Origin: a virus
Virus record (IMG/VR): IMGVR_UViG_3300023174_005338
Span: 273,120 to 337,119 of that record
Length of the DNA: 64,000 nucleotides
Strand: one strand, 5' to 3'
The notes under the pieces are model-generated. The model had not been told where the DNA came from. It made no database searches and was given only the letters and a program-made list of their open reading frames with translations. Shown here one piece after another: positions 2,048 through 9,267 of this stretch; position 1 is the first letter of the stretch; each line of letters starts with the position of its first letter. The translations under genes were made by a program, and so were the position numbers.

Positions 2048-3025
2048 ATGACATTTATTACCAAAATTTTTGACGGCTCACAATCAGTAATAAAATTGTT
2101 GCTTGCAATTTTGTTGACGTGGGCAATTCCATCGTGGTCTGCAACATATCCATCGAAACCAGTGAAAATTATCATCAGCTTGCCGATAGGCAGTGGTCCA
2201 GATGCACAATTACGACGGGTGGCAGAAATACTGTCAGAAAAATGGAACCAACCTGTGGTTGTAGAAAATCGACCCGGAGCATCTGGAATAGTGGCCATGA
2301 ATCAAGTGGTAAATGAACCTGCCGATGGATATACATTAGGACTGTTTCACATGGGAGATATTGTGCCATTTCCTATTTTATACAACAACAACAAAGCTCT
2401 AGACAACCTAGTAGTACTGGCTCCATTTTTTACAGCAGACATGGCATTGTTTGTTAGCACCGGTGTTAAAAATCTTGAAGAGCTCAAACAACTTTTAAAA
2501 AGAAATCCCAATTATGGTTCCTGGGGAATAGGAAGCATACAGCATGTTGTCGGTGCAGAGTTTGTTAGTTTGTATGTTGATAATGCCACCCATATTCCTT
2601 ATCGAGACGGTAACTTGTTCACCGATGTAAGCACCAAAACATTGAGCTTTGGTTTTACTAGTCTGGGGTCTGGCAATGCTATGTATCGTGCTAACAAGAT
2701 TCATTATTTGGCCATTGCTACTGACCAACGGCACAAACAATTTCCTGATGTCCCGACTATTAGAGAACTAACTGGTAAAAAAATTGTGGCTCAGAGCTGG
2801 CTAGCATTCTTCGTAAAAAAAGGAATTCCTGATCCAGTCCGTCAACAAATAGAAAAAGATCTACGTGTAGCTATTGCAGATCAAAGAATGCAAGATTTTT
2901 TACTTGAAAATTATTTTATACCTCTCAACAACACAAGTTTAAATCAGTTTGTAAAACAAATTGAGCACGAACGTTCGGTTTACAAAAACAATCTTCAACG
3001 ACACAAAATCAGTCTTACGCAATGA
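2048..3025 (+). CDS. Bug/TctC-family periplasmic solute-binding protein
   Basis: 325 residues from the ATG at 2048, preceded by AAGGA at suitable distance; a TTG at 2027 is possible but less likely. Residues 1-30 form a signal peptide (hydrophobic LLLAILLTWAIP, then WSA). The mature N-terminus YPSKPVKIIISLPIG and the following VVENRPGASG are hallmarks of the Bug family, the extracytoplasmic binding proteins of tripartite tricarboxylate transporters, which bind carboxylates. No membrane subunits (TctA/TctB) are present, so it would have to serve a host transporter, much as phage-encoded PstS is thought to in cyanophages. Its stop overlaps the next start (ATGA), implying translational coupling. 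The family is greatly expanded in Burkholderiales, which hints at the host. Confidence 0.9.
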   Translation: MTFITKIFDGSQSVIKLLLAILLTWAIPSWSATYPSKPVKIIISLPIGSGPDAQLRRVAEILSEKWNQPVVVENRPGASGIVAMNQVVNEPADGYTLGLFHMGDIVPFPILYNNNKALDNLVVLAPFFTADMALFVSTGVKNLEELKQLLKRNPNYGSWGIGSIQHVVGAEFVSLYVDNATHIPYRDGNLFTDVSTKTLSFGFTSLGSGNAMYRANKIHYLAIATDQRHKQFPDVPTIRELTGKKIVAQSWLAFFVKKGIPDPVRQQIEKDLRVAIADQRMQDFLLENYFIPLNNTSLNQFVKQIEHERSVYKNNLQRHKISLTQ

Positions 3026-4290
3026 CCCATTACTGGCCCGATCAAAACACCAGCAGAATTCCCTATTGGGCCTATACCGACACTGATGTATATCAGCAAG
3101 AATTACAAAAAATTTGGTATGGACCGCATTGGTGTTATGTTGGGCTTGAATGCGAAATACCCAACACGAATGATTTCAAACTCGGCTGGGTAGGAGAGCG
3201 CGAAGTAATAGTTACTAGAGATCTAGATGGCATCCATGTGGTAGAAAATCGGTGCGCTCACAGAGGTGTTCGTTTTTGTCAAAAACAAACAGGAAATACC
3301 GAGAAATTTGTGTGTGCATATCATCAATGGAGGTACAATCTCAAGGGAGATCTTGTCAGTGTACCTTTTGAAAAAGGCGCACCCAAAAATGGAGAAATCT
3401 GTGGAGGCATGCCAGATAATTTTGACAAGCATAATCATGGGCTGGTAAAATTGCATGTGGCTGTTTTGCACGGAGTGATATTTGCCACGTTTGATGACAG
3501 TGTGTGTGGCATAGAACAATATTTAGGACCCGAAATACTGCCTTGGTTTGAAAGAACATTCAAAGGTCGGACACTGAAATTGCTAGGACATAATCGTCAA
3601 GAAATCAAAGGCAATTGGAAATTGATGATGGAAAACATCAAAGATCCTTATCACCCTGGTTTATTGCACACATGGTTTGTGACTTTTGGTTTGTTCAGGG
3701 CCGATCAATCCACAAGCAGAATGGTCATTGACAAAGAAGGACGTCATGCAGTCATGTTGAATCGTCGCAATCGTGGAATAGCCAACGAAGTAACCAAAGG
3801 AGTTGAATCGTTCAAGCCCAAAATGCAGTTGAACGATACTAGATTATTAGACATAGTCGAAGAGCCATGGTGGACTGTGCCAGACCCCAATGACCCCAAA
3901 CAACCCATCAACCCTACAAACTGCATGCAAACAATTTTTCCTAGCCTGATAATTCAACAACAGATCAACAGCATGAGCACACGACATATTGTGCCTCGCG
4001 GTCCCGGGTGTTTTGAATTTACCTGGACCCATTTTGCTTTTTCAGACGACTCAGAGGACATGATTCAACGCAGACTTAGACAAGCAAATCTTTTTGGACC
4101 AGCCGGATTTGTCAGCGCCGACGATGGTGAAGTGTTGGAGTTATCACAGCAAGGTTTTAATCAATGGCGCACAGATGGAGAATTACTGGTAGAATTAGGT
4201 GGGCCAGATTCTGGACAAACTACCGAGCACATGGTCACAGAAACTCTGATCAGGGGCATGTATAGATACTACAGAAAAATAATGGCATGA
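3022..4290 (+). CDS. Rieske aromatic-ring-hydroxylating oxygenase, alpha subunit
   Basis: 422 residues. The Rieske [2Fe-2S] ligands are C78-A-H80 and C98-A-Y-H101 (spacing as in ring-hydroxylating oxygenases). The catalytic domain carries NWKLMMENIKDPYHPGLLH: D208, H211 and H216 are the bridging aspartate and two iron ligands, and an acidic SADDGE near residue 366 could supply the carboxylate ligand. Length and the small partner gene resemble salicylate 5-hydroxylase-type enzymes (NagG/NagH) within the anthranilate/salicylate group; the exact substrate is inference. All metal ligands are intact. Ferredoxin and reductase are not in the window and would come from the host or elsewhere. It overlaps its neighbours by four bases at both ends. 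Confidence 0.92.
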   Translation: MTHYWPDQNTSRIPYWAYTDTDVYQQELQKIWYGPHWCYVGLECEIPNTNDFKLGWVGEREVIVTRDLDGIHVVENRCAHRGVRFCQKQTGNTEKFVCAYHQWRYNLKGDLVSVPFEKGAPKNGEICGGMPDNFDKHNHGLVKLHVAVLHGVIFATFDDSVCGIEQYLGPEILPWFERTFKGRTLKLLGHNRQEIKGNWKLMMENIKDPYHPGLLHTWFVTFGLFRADQSTSRMVIDKEGRHAVMLNRRNRGIANEVTKGVESFKPKMQLNDTRLLDIVEEPWWTVPDPNDPKQPINPTNCMQTIFPSLIIQQQINSMSTRHIVPRGPGCFEFTWTHFAFSDDSEDMIQRRLRQANLFGPAGFVSADDGEVLELSQQGFNQWRTDGELLVELGGPDSGQTTEHMVTETLIRGMYRYYRKIMA

Positions 4291-4760
4291 AGGATCTGGA
4301 ACTTAAATTTCAAATTGATCAACTAAATGCCTGCTATGGCGATGCGTTGGATCGACATGATTACAACACATGGATGAATTTTTTTGAAGAAGAATGTTTG
4401 TATTTGGTGCAAAGTCGAGAAAATTTTGATCGCAACTTGCCTCTTGCATTGATACGATTGGAAAGCCATCGTATGATGCAAGATCGAGTTTATGGTTGCA
4501 TGGACACAATTTTTCATCAAGAATATTATCAGCGTCATATAATTTCAGGTTGTGTGATTAGCAAAATAGAAAATAACAAAATTTTTACTAGAACAAATTA
4601 CACAGTTTTTAGAACCAAACCCACAGAATCTTCAGAAGTATTCAATGTTGGGTGCTATCACGATGTCTGGTCGCAACGACACACCGGGCCAAAGTTGGCT
4701 GAACGCAAATGTGTTTACGACAGCGAAATGATTTTGAATGCGTTAATATATCCAATTTAA
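4287..4760 (+). CDS. Ring-hydroxylating oxygenase, beta subunit
   Basis: 157 residues, starting inside the stop codon of the alpha-subunit gene (ATGA). The N-terminal pattern (acidic/aromatic YGDALDRHDYNTWMNFFEEE) and the central arginine- and tyrosine-rich segment match the NTF2/SnoaL-like beta subunits that pair with Rieske alpha subunits in alpha3beta3 oxygenases. The beta subunit is structural and contributes to substrate selection. Immediate coupling to a complete alpha subunit supports the call more strongly than the sequence alone. It is the last gene of the cassette; gp46 follows after 37 bases. Confidence 0.85.
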   Translation: MKDLELKFQIDQLNACYGDALDRHDYNTWMNFFEEECLYLVQSRENFDRNLPLALIRLESHRMMQDRVYGCMDTIFHQEYYQRHIISGCVISKIENNKIFTRTNYTVFRTKPTESSEVFNVGCYHDVWSQRHTGPKLAERKCVYDSEMILNALIYPI

Positions 4761-4797: not shown

Positions 4798-6561
4798 ATG
4801 ATTCAAATAAAAAATCTCACAGTAAAAAACTTTATGAGCGTGGGCAACGCCACGCAAGGCATCGACTTTGATCGACGCGACTTGACACTTGTGTTGGGCG
4901 AGAACTTGGATCTTGGTGGCGACGGAAGCCGCAACGGCACAGGTAAAACTACTATAATCAATGCTCTTAGCTACAGCTTGTATGGGCAAGCATTAAGTAA
5001 CATCCGCAAGGACAACTTAGTCAACAAAACCAACAACAAAAACATGTTGGTCAGTTTGGATTTCAGTGTGGACGGCAAAGATTACCGGATTGAACGAGGC
5101 CGTAAACCCAACCTGCTGAGATTCTTTGTAAACAATCAAGAGCAAGTGGTCACAGACGAAGCACAAGGCGACAGCCGAGAAACACAGGATGCCATTGAAC
5201 ATACCTTGGGCCTCAGTCACGACATGTTCAAACACATTCTGGCACTCAACACTTACACAGAACCGTTTCTGAGTCTCAAAGCCACAGATCAAAGAACCAT
5301 CATTGAACAACTCCTGGGCATAACCATGCTGAGCGAGCGTGCCGATCGAATCAAAGAACACAACAGATCCACCAAAGAAGCCATACAGCAAGAAGAATTC
5401 CGTATTCGAGCTGTTCAAGAAGCCAATAAAAGGATAGAAGAACAGATTGAGGCTTTACGACGTAGACAGACATTATGGGTGACTAAACATGAAGAAGAGA
5501 TTACCAAACTCGAAACCGCGCTCGAAGAACTCAAAAAGATTGACATTGAAGCCGAGATTGCGGCCCACAAGGCGCACAAAGTATGGGATCAGAAGCGCAA
5601 GGACCTTAACGACCTGGCTGGACAGATCTCCCGCACGAAGCTTGATAAGGACCGCGAGAACAAAAGCATTGAGAAGCTTGGCAAGGAGATTGCGACACTT
5701 GAAGATCACACATGTCACACTTGCGGGCAGGCTTTCCACGACCATAAGCACCAACAGGTCCTGGCGGGTAAGCAGGCTGATCTGGCAAGAGCGCGAGAAG
5801 CGTGCCAAGAACATACACAGCTCCTTTCAGAACTCGAGACTGCCCACACAGCCTTGGGCACGTTAGGGCGACCACCTGCTATGTTCTATGATAGTGAAGA
5901 GGATGCCATACAACATCGTAGCAGCATGGCTGCCTTGCAAACTCAATTGACAAACAAACAGGCCGAAACAGATCCCTACGGCGAGCAGATAGCGGACATG
6001 CAAGGTCAGGCTTTGCAGGTAGTAAGCTATGACACACTCAATGAGCTGACCAGACTTCAGGAACATCAAGACTTCTTGCTCAAACTTTTGACCAGCAAGG
6101 ATTCATTCATACGCAAAAAAATCATTGAACAGAATTTGAGTTATTTGAATGCCAGACTCACACACTACCTGGATAGGATTGGCCTGCCGCATACCGTGGT
6201 GTTCCAGAACGATTTGACTGTGAGCATCGAGGAGCTGGGTCGTGAGCTGGACTTTGACAATTTGAGTCGTGGCGAACGCAACAGATTGATCTTGAGCATG
6301 AGCTGGGCCTTTCGTGATGTGTTTGAAAGCCTATACCAGCCCATCAATGTGCTGTTCATAGACGAAATGATTGATTCGGGCCTGGACACACAGGGTGTAG
6401 AAAATGCTCTTGCGTTGCTGAAGCACATGAGCCGCGAACGGCACAAGAGTATTTGGTTGGTCAGCCACAGAGATGAGCTAGCCGGAAGAGTTGAAAACAT
6501 ACTCCGAGTGGTCAAAGAAGGCGGCTTTACCAGTTACAACACGGATGTAGAAATTGCGTAG
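4798..6561 (+). CDS. 46: gp46-like recombination endonuclease subunit (Rad50/SbcC-like ATPase)
   Basis: 587 residues with SMC-type architecture: Walker A GTGKTT (K50) in the N-terminal ATPase lobe, a coiled-coil region around residues 190-430 interrupted by the zinc-hook CHTC (C306, C309), and a C-terminal lobe with signature LSRGERNRL and Walker B VLFIDEMIDSG (D522/E523). In T4, gp46 with gp47 resects DNA ends for recombination-dependent replication and packaging, and degrades host DNA. Length is close to T4 gp46. It lies downstream of the metabolic cassette instead of next to gp47. Its stop overlaps the following radical SAM gene. Confidence 0.95.
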   Translation: MIQIKNLTVKNFMSVGNATQGIDFDRRDLTLVLGENLDLGGDGSRNGTGKTTIINALSYSLYGQALSNIRKDNLVNKTNNKNMLVSLDFSVDGKDYRIERGRKPNLLRFFVNNQEQVVTDEAQGDSRETQDAIEHTLGLSHDMFKHILALNTYTEPFLSLKATDQRTIIEQLLGITMLSERADRIKEHNRSTKEAIQQEEFRIRAVQEANKRIEEQIEALRRRQTLWVTKHEEEITKLETALEELKKIDIEAEIAAHKAHKVWDQKRKDLNDLAGQISRTKLDKDRENKSIEKLGKEIATLEDHTCHTCGQAFHDHKHQQVLAGKQADLARAREACQEHTQLLSELETAHTALGTLGRPPAMFYDSEEDAIQHRSSMAALQTQLTNKQAETDPYGEQIADMQGQALQVVSYDTLNELTRLQEHQDFLLKLLTSKDSFIRKKIIEQNLSYLNARLTHYLDRIGLPHTVVFQNDLTVSIEELGRELDFDNLSRGERNRLILSMSWAFRDVFESLYQPINVLFIDEMIDSGLDTQGVENALALLKHMSRERHKSIWLVSHRDELAGRVENILRVVKEGGFTSYNTDVEIA

Positions 6562-7420
6562 AATACGAGTCTTACACATTGAACCCACCGACGTTTGTCA
6601 GGCTGCATGCCCGTTGTGTGCCCGAGAGACTGACCCAAACTTTAATAAAAGTTTAAAGCATCATCTCAGAGTAGAGCACATACAAAAACATTTTTCAGAA
6701 CAAGTAATTTCCAAACTGGATAAAATGTTCATGTGTGGCAATTATGGTGATCCGGCTGCAGGCTACTATACCATGGACATCTACAACCACTTTAGAAAAG
6801 TCAATCCAGAAATTGTGTTGGGTATGAACACCAATGGTGCTGTGCAAAGCACGTTCTTTTGGCATGCGTTGGGACGATTGTTCAATCAGCCCAAAGATTA
6901 TTGTGTGTTTAGCATAGACGGATTAGAGGATACCAATCACGTTTATCGTAAAAATGTCAATTGGGCCAAGCTAATGAGCAACGTTCAAGCCTACATTGCC
7001 GCAGGTGGAAGTGCCCATTGGGACATGCTGGTGTACAAACACAATCAACATCAAGTGGATGCTTGCCAGCAACTGGCTCGTGACATGGGATTCAAGTGGT
7101 TCCGTGCCAAGGTCAGCAAGCGTGGATTCACTGATCATTTAGAATTTCCCATCGGGTGGCAACCGCCTGCGGTCAAGGCGGGGCCCATCAAATGCCATGT
7201 GATTAATGAAAAAAGCATGTACATTGATGCGCAAGGTCGTGCCAGTGCCTGTTGCTGGCTTGGTGCCACGCAACAAGATTTTGTCAAAGATGATTTGGCA
7301 ACTGTAAAATTAACTTGGAAAACAGACACACCCAATCCGGTGTGTGTCAGTGCTTGTTCCACAAACAAAAATAAAACCGTATTCCAAGACCAATGGCAAC
7401 GCGAGGTACAACTGTGTTAG
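6554..7420 (+). CDS. Radical SAM protein (first of a tandem pair)
   Basis: 288 residues beginning at TTG; an in-frame stop lies two codons upstream and the next ATG falls after the cluster motif, so TTG is forced. The motif CQAACPLC (CX3CX2C) binds the [4Fe-4S] cluster that cleaves S-adenosylmethionine. A second cysteine-rich part at the C-terminus (MYIDAQGRASACCW, then CVSACS) looks like a SPASM/twitch auxiliary-cluster domain. Such proteins modify peptides or small molecules; the substrate is unknown. The start overlaps the end of gp46 by eight bases and the end overlaps the next radical SAM gene by 28 bases, so the three are probably co-translated. Confidence 0.8.
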   Translation: MRRIRVLHIEPTDVCQAACPLCARETDPNFNKSLKHHLRVEHIQKHFSEQVISKLDKMFMCGNYGDPAAGYYTMDIYNHFRKVNPEIVLGMNTNGAVQSTFFWHALGRLFNQPKDYCVFSIDGLEDTNHVYRKNVNWAKLMSNVQAYIAAGGSAHWDMLVYKHNQHQVDACQQLARDMGFKWFRAKVSKRGFTDHLEFPIGWQPPAVKAGPIKCHVINEKSMYIDAQGRASACCWLGATQQDFVKDDLATVKLTWKTDTPNPVCVSACSTNKNKTVFQDQWQREVQLC

Positions 7421-8424
7421 CCACCTGGCATTTTCATATCGAAATCAGTTCAAAGTGTACCCTGCGTTGCCCACGCTGTGCCAGACAAGAGGTTCCCGAC
7501 AGTTTAGTAAACACTGAACTGGATTTAGAATTTTTTAAAAGAAACTTTACCGCAGAGTTTGTTCTTGACAATGTAGAAAAGATCACATTTTGTGGTGACG
7601 ACGGTGATCCTATCTATGCTCACGACCTTATACCAGTGATTCAATACATCAAGTCAATCAAACCTGTTGAGATTGTAGTTGTCACAAATGGATCACACAA
7701 GAAACCAGAATGGTGGCGTGAACTTGGTGGCGTGCTTAGTGAGCAAGATACTGTACACTTTAGCATCGACGGTTGGGACTACCCAAGCAACAATCTGTAT
7801 CGTGTCAACAGTGATTTCAACAGTATTGTCGACGGAATCACTGCACTACGATCAACCTCTGAGTGCCACCTTGTGTGGGCTGCCATTGTCTTTGGGTTCA
7901 ATGAACACCAACTGGGCGCTATGAAAAATCATGCACGTTTGCTAGATATGGATGTATTTCAACTTACCAAGAGCACCAAGTTTGGCTCCGTTTATCTCTC
8001 CTACGGTCCAATCGATGAGCTAGAGCCCAGCCGGCCGTTTGTCAGCAGTTCACACAGATTTGAGAGAGATGTTACACCGATAAGCTCGCGTGGACTCAAT
8101 TCACAGACAAACACCAAGAACATACAATTATACAAATCTGCTGTAGAGATCAACGGTGTAAAACCCCTGTGTGAAATTGGCAACAAAGGACTTTATATTG
8201 ACGCCCAAGGTAGATTATTCCCTTGCTGTTGGGTAGCAAACCGCTACAGTCACAATTCAGAATGGAAAGCTATTGCTAACAAATTTGATTTGAATCGTCG
8301 CACACTGGCCGACGCTGTAACTGACGATTTTTGGTCAACAACATTTAAAACCTTTGGGTGGCAAGAGTGCCAGACTAAGTGTGTAGCGAGCAGGGTAAAT
8401 GAAAAATATGCAACTGAGTGGTAA
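7393..8424 (+). CDS. Radical SAM protein (second of a tandem pair)
   Basis: 343 residues. The N-terminal CTLRCPRC is a radical SAM CX3CX2C motif. The C-terminal half contains LYIDAQGRLFPCCW, closely matching the equivalent segment of the preceding gene, so the two are probably diverged duplicates with SPASM/twitch-type auxiliary sites. The middle part, including FCGDDGDPIYAHDLIPVIQYI and FSIDGWD, follows the usual radical SAM barrel pattern. It overlaps the upstream gene by 28 bases. No candidate peptide substrate with a clear leader was recognised nearby. Function is unassigned beyond the enzyme class. Confidence 0.8.
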   Translation: MATRGTTVLATWHFHIEISSKCTLRCPRCARQEVPDSLVNTELDLEFFKRNFTAEFVLDNVEKITFCGDDGDPIYAHDLIPVIQYIKSIKPVEIVVVTNGSHKKPEWWRELGGVLSEQDTVHFSIDGWDYPSNNLYRVNSDFNSIVDGITALRSTSECHLVWAAIVFGFNEHQLGAMKNHARLLDMDVFQLTKSTKFGSVYLSYGPIDELEPSRPFVSSSHRFERDVTPISSRGLNSQTNTKNIQLYKSAVEINGVKPLCEIGNKGLYIDAQGRLFPCCWVANRYSHNSEWKAIANKFDLNRRTLADAVTDDFWSTTFKTFGWQECQTKCVASRVNEKYATEW

Positions 8425-8871: not shown

Positions 8872-8873
8872 AC

Positions 8874-8887
8874 TTAGATAGGCAACA
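8874..8887 (+). repeat. 14-base element shared with the gp32 leader
   Basis: TTAGATAGGCAACA occurs here and again at 63868-63881 before gene 32. Its core AGGCAAC recurs exactly 100 bases downstream at 8980-8986 within the candidate RNA. Confidence 0.7.
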
Positions 8888-9267
8888 ACATGACTCTGCG
8901 GTAGGACTACCTACCCCCATTGAGGAACGGTGAGATACCCGGTCCAGATTCTTGGGTGTCAAAGGCAATTGCTAACTTAAGGCAACAAATGGTTTGAGCT
9001 CTGTGAAAAAGACACAACTCATGCTCATAGGACTTGGTTCTTCTCGGGTCACTAGGGTTCCGTTGATATGTGAAGCTTGAGTAGGGGGTACCGGTCAACC
9101 GCCTCCGCGTCGCGAGACAATCTCATTAGAAACGAAGTGACTGCTCCGACTCGGATAATGCGGCCTTTTTCACCCGGCAACGGGTGAATTGTGACCACAT
9201 GATCTGGATAATACGGAAAAAGAAATCATTGATGAGCGACAGCGAATCAATAGATCTCTAAGAGATC
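8874..9267 (+). ncRNA. Candidate structured RNA in a gene-free interval
   Basis: About 395 bases without a credible gene. Nested complementary segments suggest a folded plus-strand RNA: 8912-8918 with 9084-9090 (TACCCCC/GGGGGTA), 8926-8930 with 9060-9064, 8937-8941 with 9045-9049, and 8995-8999 with 9023-9027. A downstream domain includes a perfect 8-bp hairpin with a GCAA tetraloop (9169-9188), a TCCG/CGGA hairpin (9145-9155) and perfect hairpins at 9228-9251 and 9252-9268. GNRA loops are strand-specific and favour the plus strand. The 5' edge has an element shared with the gp32 leader. It does not match tRNA, tmRNA or group I intron core motifs that I can recognise. Confidence 0.45.

Follow-up and report, generated by a model that had tools for sequence, protein, structure and literature searches.

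A jumbo-phage Bug/TctC binding protein encoded beside a Rieske oxygenase and possibly serving aromatic acid uptake

The gene at positions 2048–3025 of the 64,000-nucleotide stretch analysed here (the window), which forms the end of a 337,119-base T4-like jumbo phage record (G000), encodes a solute-binding protein of the Bug/TctC family, an orphan without a permease of its own; this assignment was confirmed by profile matching and by the fold of a structural model. The gene is the second of four in a cassette, in the order ANL enzyme, Bug, Rieske oxygenase alpha and oxygenase beta. The orphan Bug may feed a hydroxybenzoate-type acid to the TctAB permease of the host for hydroxylation by the phage oxygenase and further breakdown by the host, a reading that we hold to be evenly balanced between right and wrong.

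The Bug gene and its cassette

The cassette, its neighbours and the sites discussed below are as follows (all on the + strand):

1–444, +: 3′ end of a nuclease subunit resembling T4 gp47 (SbcD), flanking the cassette on the left (PHROG 100 SbcD-like, 4.3e-8)
486–2012, +: divergent 508-aa adenylate-forming enzyme (AMP-binding) of the ANL superfamily (PF00501, 3.5e-11)
2048–3025, +: Bug/TctC periplasmic solute-binding protein, 325 aa (PF03401, 7.2e-39; Bug fold; tree placement)
2048–2143, +: probable Sec signal peptide, residues 1–32, ending ...AIPSWSA/TYPSKP (sequence reading; low-confidence N-terminal helix in the model)
2522–2524, +: codon of Trp159, aligned to TphC pocket residue Q150 (Trp in 19 of 19 clade members)
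3022–4290, +: alpha subunit of a Rieske ring-hydroxylating oxygenase of the salicylate 5-hydroxylase (NagG) family (PF00355, 4.6e-14; PF00848, 7.3e-18)
4287–4760, +: oxygenase beta subunit, NagH-like (PF00866, 3.2e-13; best PDB match 7c8z chain B, 126 bits)
4798–6561, +: nuclease subunit resembling T4 gp46 (SbcC), flanking the cassette on the right (PHROG 77 SbcC-like, 3e-100)

The Bug reading frame runs from an ATG at 2048 to a stop codon at 3023–3025, the coordinates given in the initial annotation being correct, and a Shine-Dalgarno-like AAGGAA lies at 2035–2040, seven bases 5′ of the ATG. The presence of a Bug/TctC protein on phage DNA, claimed there, was borne out by the Pfam TctC profile (134 bits against a curated cut-off of 27) and by an AlphaFold model built on a 16-row alignment of the window and fetched loci (pLDDT 85, pTM 0.79). 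Bug/TTT binding proteins made up all of the 17 best PDB chains for this model, with TM-scores (normalized by target length) reaching 0.88; among them were BugD, TphC, TBP, Bug27, AdpC, and MatC, and the predicted fold was closest to BugD and TphC.

Two further claims of that annotation, a visible signal peptide and diagnostic Bug motifs, are less clear-cut. A signal peptide is plausible from the hydrophobic N-terminus and the likely cleavage site ...PSWSA/TYP, and canonical-looking signal peptides occur in the homologues from contigs L006, L007, and L239 (in L006, MKKQIFTALLSMCIAVSSAVA/FP); however, the n-region of the window copy is long, a crude heuristic did not flag it, and it is not textbook. 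The TctC domain is well matched, but the canonical ligand-loop motif PF.AGG..D (P-F-x-A-G-G-x-x-D) is degenerate, reading SLPIGSGPD, with the first G and the D retained and the F and second G substituted; in the related bacterial clade the loop reads GSGP[DE] or GGGPD.

Stop and start codons overlap at both the Bug/alpha and the alpha/beta junctions. In five phage records the slot between gp47 and gp46 held a Bug in all five, the oxygenase alpha-beta pair in four, and the ANL enzyme in three: L239 has the full four-gene cassette, L006 and L007 have Bug-alpha-beta without the ligase, and L292 has ligase-Bug without the oxygenase. Intact gp47-like homologues lie upstream of the cassette in L006 and L239. 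The ANL enzyme matched PF00501 at 43 bits (cut-off 29.9), and its homologue in the same slot of L239 is 62% identical, with a more distant one in L292. Among the Bugs of the window, L239, L006, and L007, identity was 53–57%, except for L006 and L007 (99%).

Several other features of these loci were recorded. In L007, three open reading frames (723–2600) separate gp47 from Bug where the ANL enzyme would otherwise lie, and the two of them that were compared with Pfam had no credible match. Two radical SAM proteins lie directly 3′ of gp46 in the window (6554–8424), and radical-SAM-like reading frames, recognized by eye, also follow gp46 in L006, L239, and L292. Some 400 bases (8872–9267) between a segE-like gene and the next reading frame of the window contain no obvious gene and had no Rfam match. 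More generally, Rfam and promoter/terminator scans gave nothing useful; a candidate T4-type late promoter, TATAAATA, at 440 upstream of the cassette, occurs in 14 copies in the record, about the number expected from composition, and was not taken as evidence.

The identity of the oxygenase to bacterial enzymes (60–66%, mainly from Comamonadaceae, in the comparison with GTDB species) and other bacteria-like genes in the record could suggest accidental cargo, that is, recently acquired host genes or a chimeric assembly without a phage function. However, the same slot is used in separately assembled contigs, the phage genes form their own clades, and GC content is uniform along G000, the cassette resembling the rest of the record. 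Additionally, selection is strongly purifying between L006 and L007, both for Bug (dN/dS 0.006/0.111, about 0.05) and for the oxygenase alpha subunit (0.003/0.140, about 0.02), and comparable to that on the replication gene gp46 (0.035/0.573). Because of the shared slot, the purifying selection and the even GC content, recent cargo or chimerism is very improbable, and the sequence comparisons already contradict it; the cassette is best read as having long been maintained by selection in a lineage of jumbo phages.

Ligand class and host

In an IQ-TREE phylogeny of Bugs (94 rows, 57 of them bacterial), the proteins of the window, L239, L006, and L007 formed one clade (100/96), which was joined by the jumbo-phage Bugs of L283 and L292 (100/100). 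The sister of this phage clade was a 13-member bacterial subfamily (99/94; sister support 100/92), and the window Bug is ∼33–37% identical to the nearest bacterial Bugs. The check proposed with the initial annotation, a family tree together with genomic neighbours, thus led to a bacterial subfamily located mostly in gentisate, hydroxybenzoate, and protocatechuate operons. Aromatic-ring catabolic genes, assigned at family level and most above NCBIfam cut-offs, lie near 10 of the 13 sister-clade Bugs as against ∼1 of 35 other Bugs, a contrast that is partly circular, as the aromatic markers were taken from the sister clade's own neighbourhoods; a second NCBIfam survey, covering 68 control neighbours, showed hardly any aromatic genes among the families listed. 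The neighbours of the sister-clade Bugs included:

L231, L232, L234: gentisate dioxygenase, maleylpyruvate/maleylacetoacetate isomerase, 3-hydroxybenzoate 6-monooxygenase
L235: MhpA-like hydroxylase
L236: 2-hydroxymuconic semialdehyde dehydrogenase, hydratase
L237, L249: protocatechuate 4,5-cleavage genes
L238: 3-oxoadipyl-CoA thiolase, transferase
L254, L256: 4-hydroxybenzoate 3-monooxygenase

Another member, L233, lies beside apparent sugar-acid genes. The best tree split the window-type Bugs from other phage Bugs, but a separate origin was not adopted, a single viral clade being unrejected (p-AU 0.185). No IMG/VR relatives were found for the Bug at G000:207.

The binding pocket points in the same direction as the neighbourhoods and does so independently of them. 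In TphC, Q150 makes the pocket narrower, to suit planar aromatic acids (PMC8556258); at the aligned position, all 19 members of the phage clade and its sister clade have Trp, compared with none of 75 other Bugs (0/44 bacterial, 0/31 phage). In the window Bug this residue, Trp159, is consistent with an aromatic-acid ligand; the key TphC ligand residue T155 is replaced by Ile.

The adjoining oxygenase belongs, by sequence comparison, to the salicylate 5-hydroxylase (NagGH) family. The best PDB match of its alpha subunit was NagG (7c8z, salicylate 5-hydroxylase; 555 bits), followed by terephthalate dioxygenase (300 bits), and residues C78/H80, C98/H101, D208, H211, H216, and D368 are found without variation in all seven phage and bacterial sequences compared; by analogy with naphthalene dioxygenase, these would be the Rieske C-x-H and C-x2-H ligands, the H-H-D iron site and the bridging Asp. 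The four phage alpha subunits formed one clade separate from the bacterial enzymes (SH-aLRT 99), and the alpha subunit scored below NCBIfam equivalog cut-offs (AndAc, 358 of 750 bits). AromaDeg groups the salicylate 5-hydroxylases in a family that acts on ortho- and para-substituted benzoates, in which several neighbouring clusters have yet to be assigned a substrate (PMC4250580); a substituted benzoate is therefore the probable substrate by family, with salicylate suggested by the best match only. Since the binding protein, through its clade and pocket Trp, and the oxygenase both point to aromatic compounds, the same ligand class is indicated by separate lines of evidence. The carboxylate ligand proposed in the initial annotation was too vague, as clade, pocket residue and adjoining enzyme all point to hydroxybenzoate-type aromatics.

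The use of the family as a host clue was also supported, the nearest bacterial relatives pointing to Burkholderiales. As to a possible scatter of relatives over unrelated phyla, the 80 best matches of the oxygenase among GTDB species genomes were nearly all from Burkholderiales, with two from Ferrovibrio, and the comparison of the Bug covered the Pseudomonadota. A Comamonadaceae-type member of the Burkholderiales is the most likely host. The G000 DNA polymerase finds its nearest relatives in jumbo phages, among them Sinorhizobium phage Phosso and Agrobacterium phage Atu_ph07. A transfer of Bug-alpha-beta as a block from bacteria is not evident: of 80 bacterial loci with a relative of the oxygenase, only three have a Bug directly beside it, and these three fall in other clades of the Bug tree.

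Possible roles of the cassette

The TctA permease was absent from G000 and from nine other jumbo-phage records (10/10) but present in all eight related bacteria tested, and so a borrowed host transporter, as the initial annotation had envisaged, is the natural reading. That annotation had treated the gene on its own, missing the cassette of oxygenase and adenylating enzyme and the fact that the protein is one of five Bugs encoded in G000. Searches of G000 found no Fer2 ferredoxin, no Rieske domain other than that of the cassette, and no aromatic ring-cleavage gene; without a ring-cleavage gene or Fer2 ferredoxin of the phage's own, the pathway would depend on the host.

We infer that the Bug would be exported to the host periplasm, where it would bind a hydroxybenzoate-type acid (e.g., salicylate, 3-hydroxybenzoate or gentisate), as suggested by the sister-clade operons, the pocket Trp and the adjoining oxygenase, and would pass it on to a TctAB permease of the host. 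Inside the cell, the phage alpha and beta subunits, together with host ferredoxin and reductase, would hydroxylate the acid, converting salicylate to gentisate if the reaction is that of NagGH, and ring cleavage by the host would yield central metabolites, presumably supplying the infection with carbon and energy. A possible task of the ANL enzyme, which some versions of the cassette lack, is to activate or trap the acid. Uptake followed by oxidation is favoured because of the distribution of TctA given above and the precedent of TphC. The best-known phage-encoded uptake proteins so far serve phosphate. Capture and oxidation of an aromatic acid by a phage would, if true, broaden the view of which nutrients viruses make their hosts use: a replicating virus may nourish its host with compounds of plant or pollutant type, and giant environmental phages would be tied to the turnover of aromatics from lignin and pollutants.

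The adenylating enzyme next to Bug permits another reading, in which the imported carboxylate, once activated by this enzyme, is built into something that the phage makes, such as a modification of nucleic acid, protein or a small molecule, and the oxygenase tailors the acid. The only two ANL enzymes detected in G000 and the only two PP-loop proteins found there (SGG[ST]DS-type; C1:206187–207329 and 210928–212256) directly adjoin four of the five Bugs, so that every adenylating-type reading frame of these two families found in the record lies beside a Bug (chance about 3e-7 by a simple count). Across phage Bugs outside a separate clade (Bug-126, described below), 19 of 23 have an adenylating-type neighbour; a PP-loop protein adjoins Bug in L280, L281, L282, L284, L285, L287, L288, L289, L290, and L291/L171, and does so twice in L144. 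Additionally, ligase-Bug pairs without an oxygenase occur in L292 and L283. Such a modification would, however, be one without a known target, and the cassettes of L006 and L007 combine Bug and oxygenase without a ligase. The PP-loop family had no Pfam match, and its identification as a putative ATP-pyrophosphatase-like carboxylate-adenylating enzyme comes from the motif, weak fold matches (carbapenam and beta-lactam synthetases, other PP-loop enzymes) and a low-confidence model. For the window cassette we regard import and activation toward a phage product as rather unlikely. Tentatively, and with more doubt than conviction, jumbo phages may possess a general system in which diversified Bugs are each paired with their own carboxylate-adenylating enzyme and work via host permeases; the window cassette would then be an aromatic version to which a Rieske oxygenase was added. 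The pairing of Bugs with adenylating-type genes offers a concrete handle on many unexplained jumbo-phage genes.

The Bug-126 clade is viral and comprises the G000 Bug at 126122 and 47 IMG/VR loci, which were fetched via that Bug and give no measure of prevalence. Its conserved trio (G000:C1:125260–127708, i.e., L019:5260–7708, and L139–L185) consists of a methyltransferase-like gene, a divergent phage-only Bug and a sulfotransferase-like gene, present in 47, 46 and 41 of the 47 loci, respectively, within the flanks fetched. Elsewhere, G000 encodes a full-length isocitrate lyase (C1:128987–130282, L019:8987–10282; NCBIfam 773 bits, cut-off 562), also present on one related contig, L142, and a DctP-type TRAP binding protein directly 3′ of a Bug (C1:208419–209366, L023:8919–9866; PF03480, 3e-54), apparently without a signal peptide.

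Roles in signalling are found among Bug proteins, and the window Bug could be a periplasmic sensor, decoy or blocker, involved in signalling or in an envelope change affecting other phages, instead of in uptake. The lack of a phage permease would fit such a role, as would the Bug-126 clade, with its methyltransferase-like and sulfotransferase-like neighbours and no activating enzyme; however, the start/stop overlap of Bug and oxygenase is kept in four phages, and both pocket and clade match proteins of aromatic operons, and we judge this role improbable.

Comparison with known systems

The window Bug has its fold and family in common with the terephthalate-binding Bugs TphC and TBP (PDB 7NDR, 7NDS, 8HKA). 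TphC, also an orphan, is encoded in a dioxygenase operon away from its permease (PMC8556258), and the cassette likewise places an orphan binding protein beside a two-subunit Rieske oxygenase. Q150 of TphC and Trp159 of the window Bug are both bulky residues at the same position (PMC8556258), but identity in the fold alignment is about 24%, with Trp for Gln and Ile for Thr155; moreover, unlike tph, the cassette is on a phage, its oxygenase is nearer to NagGH than to TphA2A3, and it has no reductase gene. NagG and NagH (PDB 7C8Z) were the best PDB matches of the two phage subunits (555 and 126 bits), whereas the phage sequences form a separate clade and the phage record has no Fer2 ferredoxin.

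Bug domains on phage DNA have been seen before: the database contains a PBP2_Bug_TTT domain containing protein from an uncultured Caudovirales phage (A0A6J5L7K0), and earlier papers mention tricarboxylate-transport (TTT) genes on contigs of viruses (PMC4164917, PMC8115048). In the open-access literature, phage Bugs and phage aromatic oxygenases were met in passing mentions only, and no paper was found that analyses phage Bugs, connects them with an oxygenase or a ligase, or proposes a ligand class for them.

The parallel with cyanophage PstS drawn in the initial annotation is apt, as both are phage-encoded periplasmic binding proteins presumed to feed a host permease, and the window Bug has no permease of its own in the phage record. 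It differs from PstS in protein family and presumed ligand class, in its coupling to a catabolic-type enzyme, and in having several paralogues in one genome. Bug domains on phage DNA and phage binding proteins for host uptake were thus already known; what appears new, from sequence comparison, is the link to an oxygenase and ligase together with the probable ligand class.
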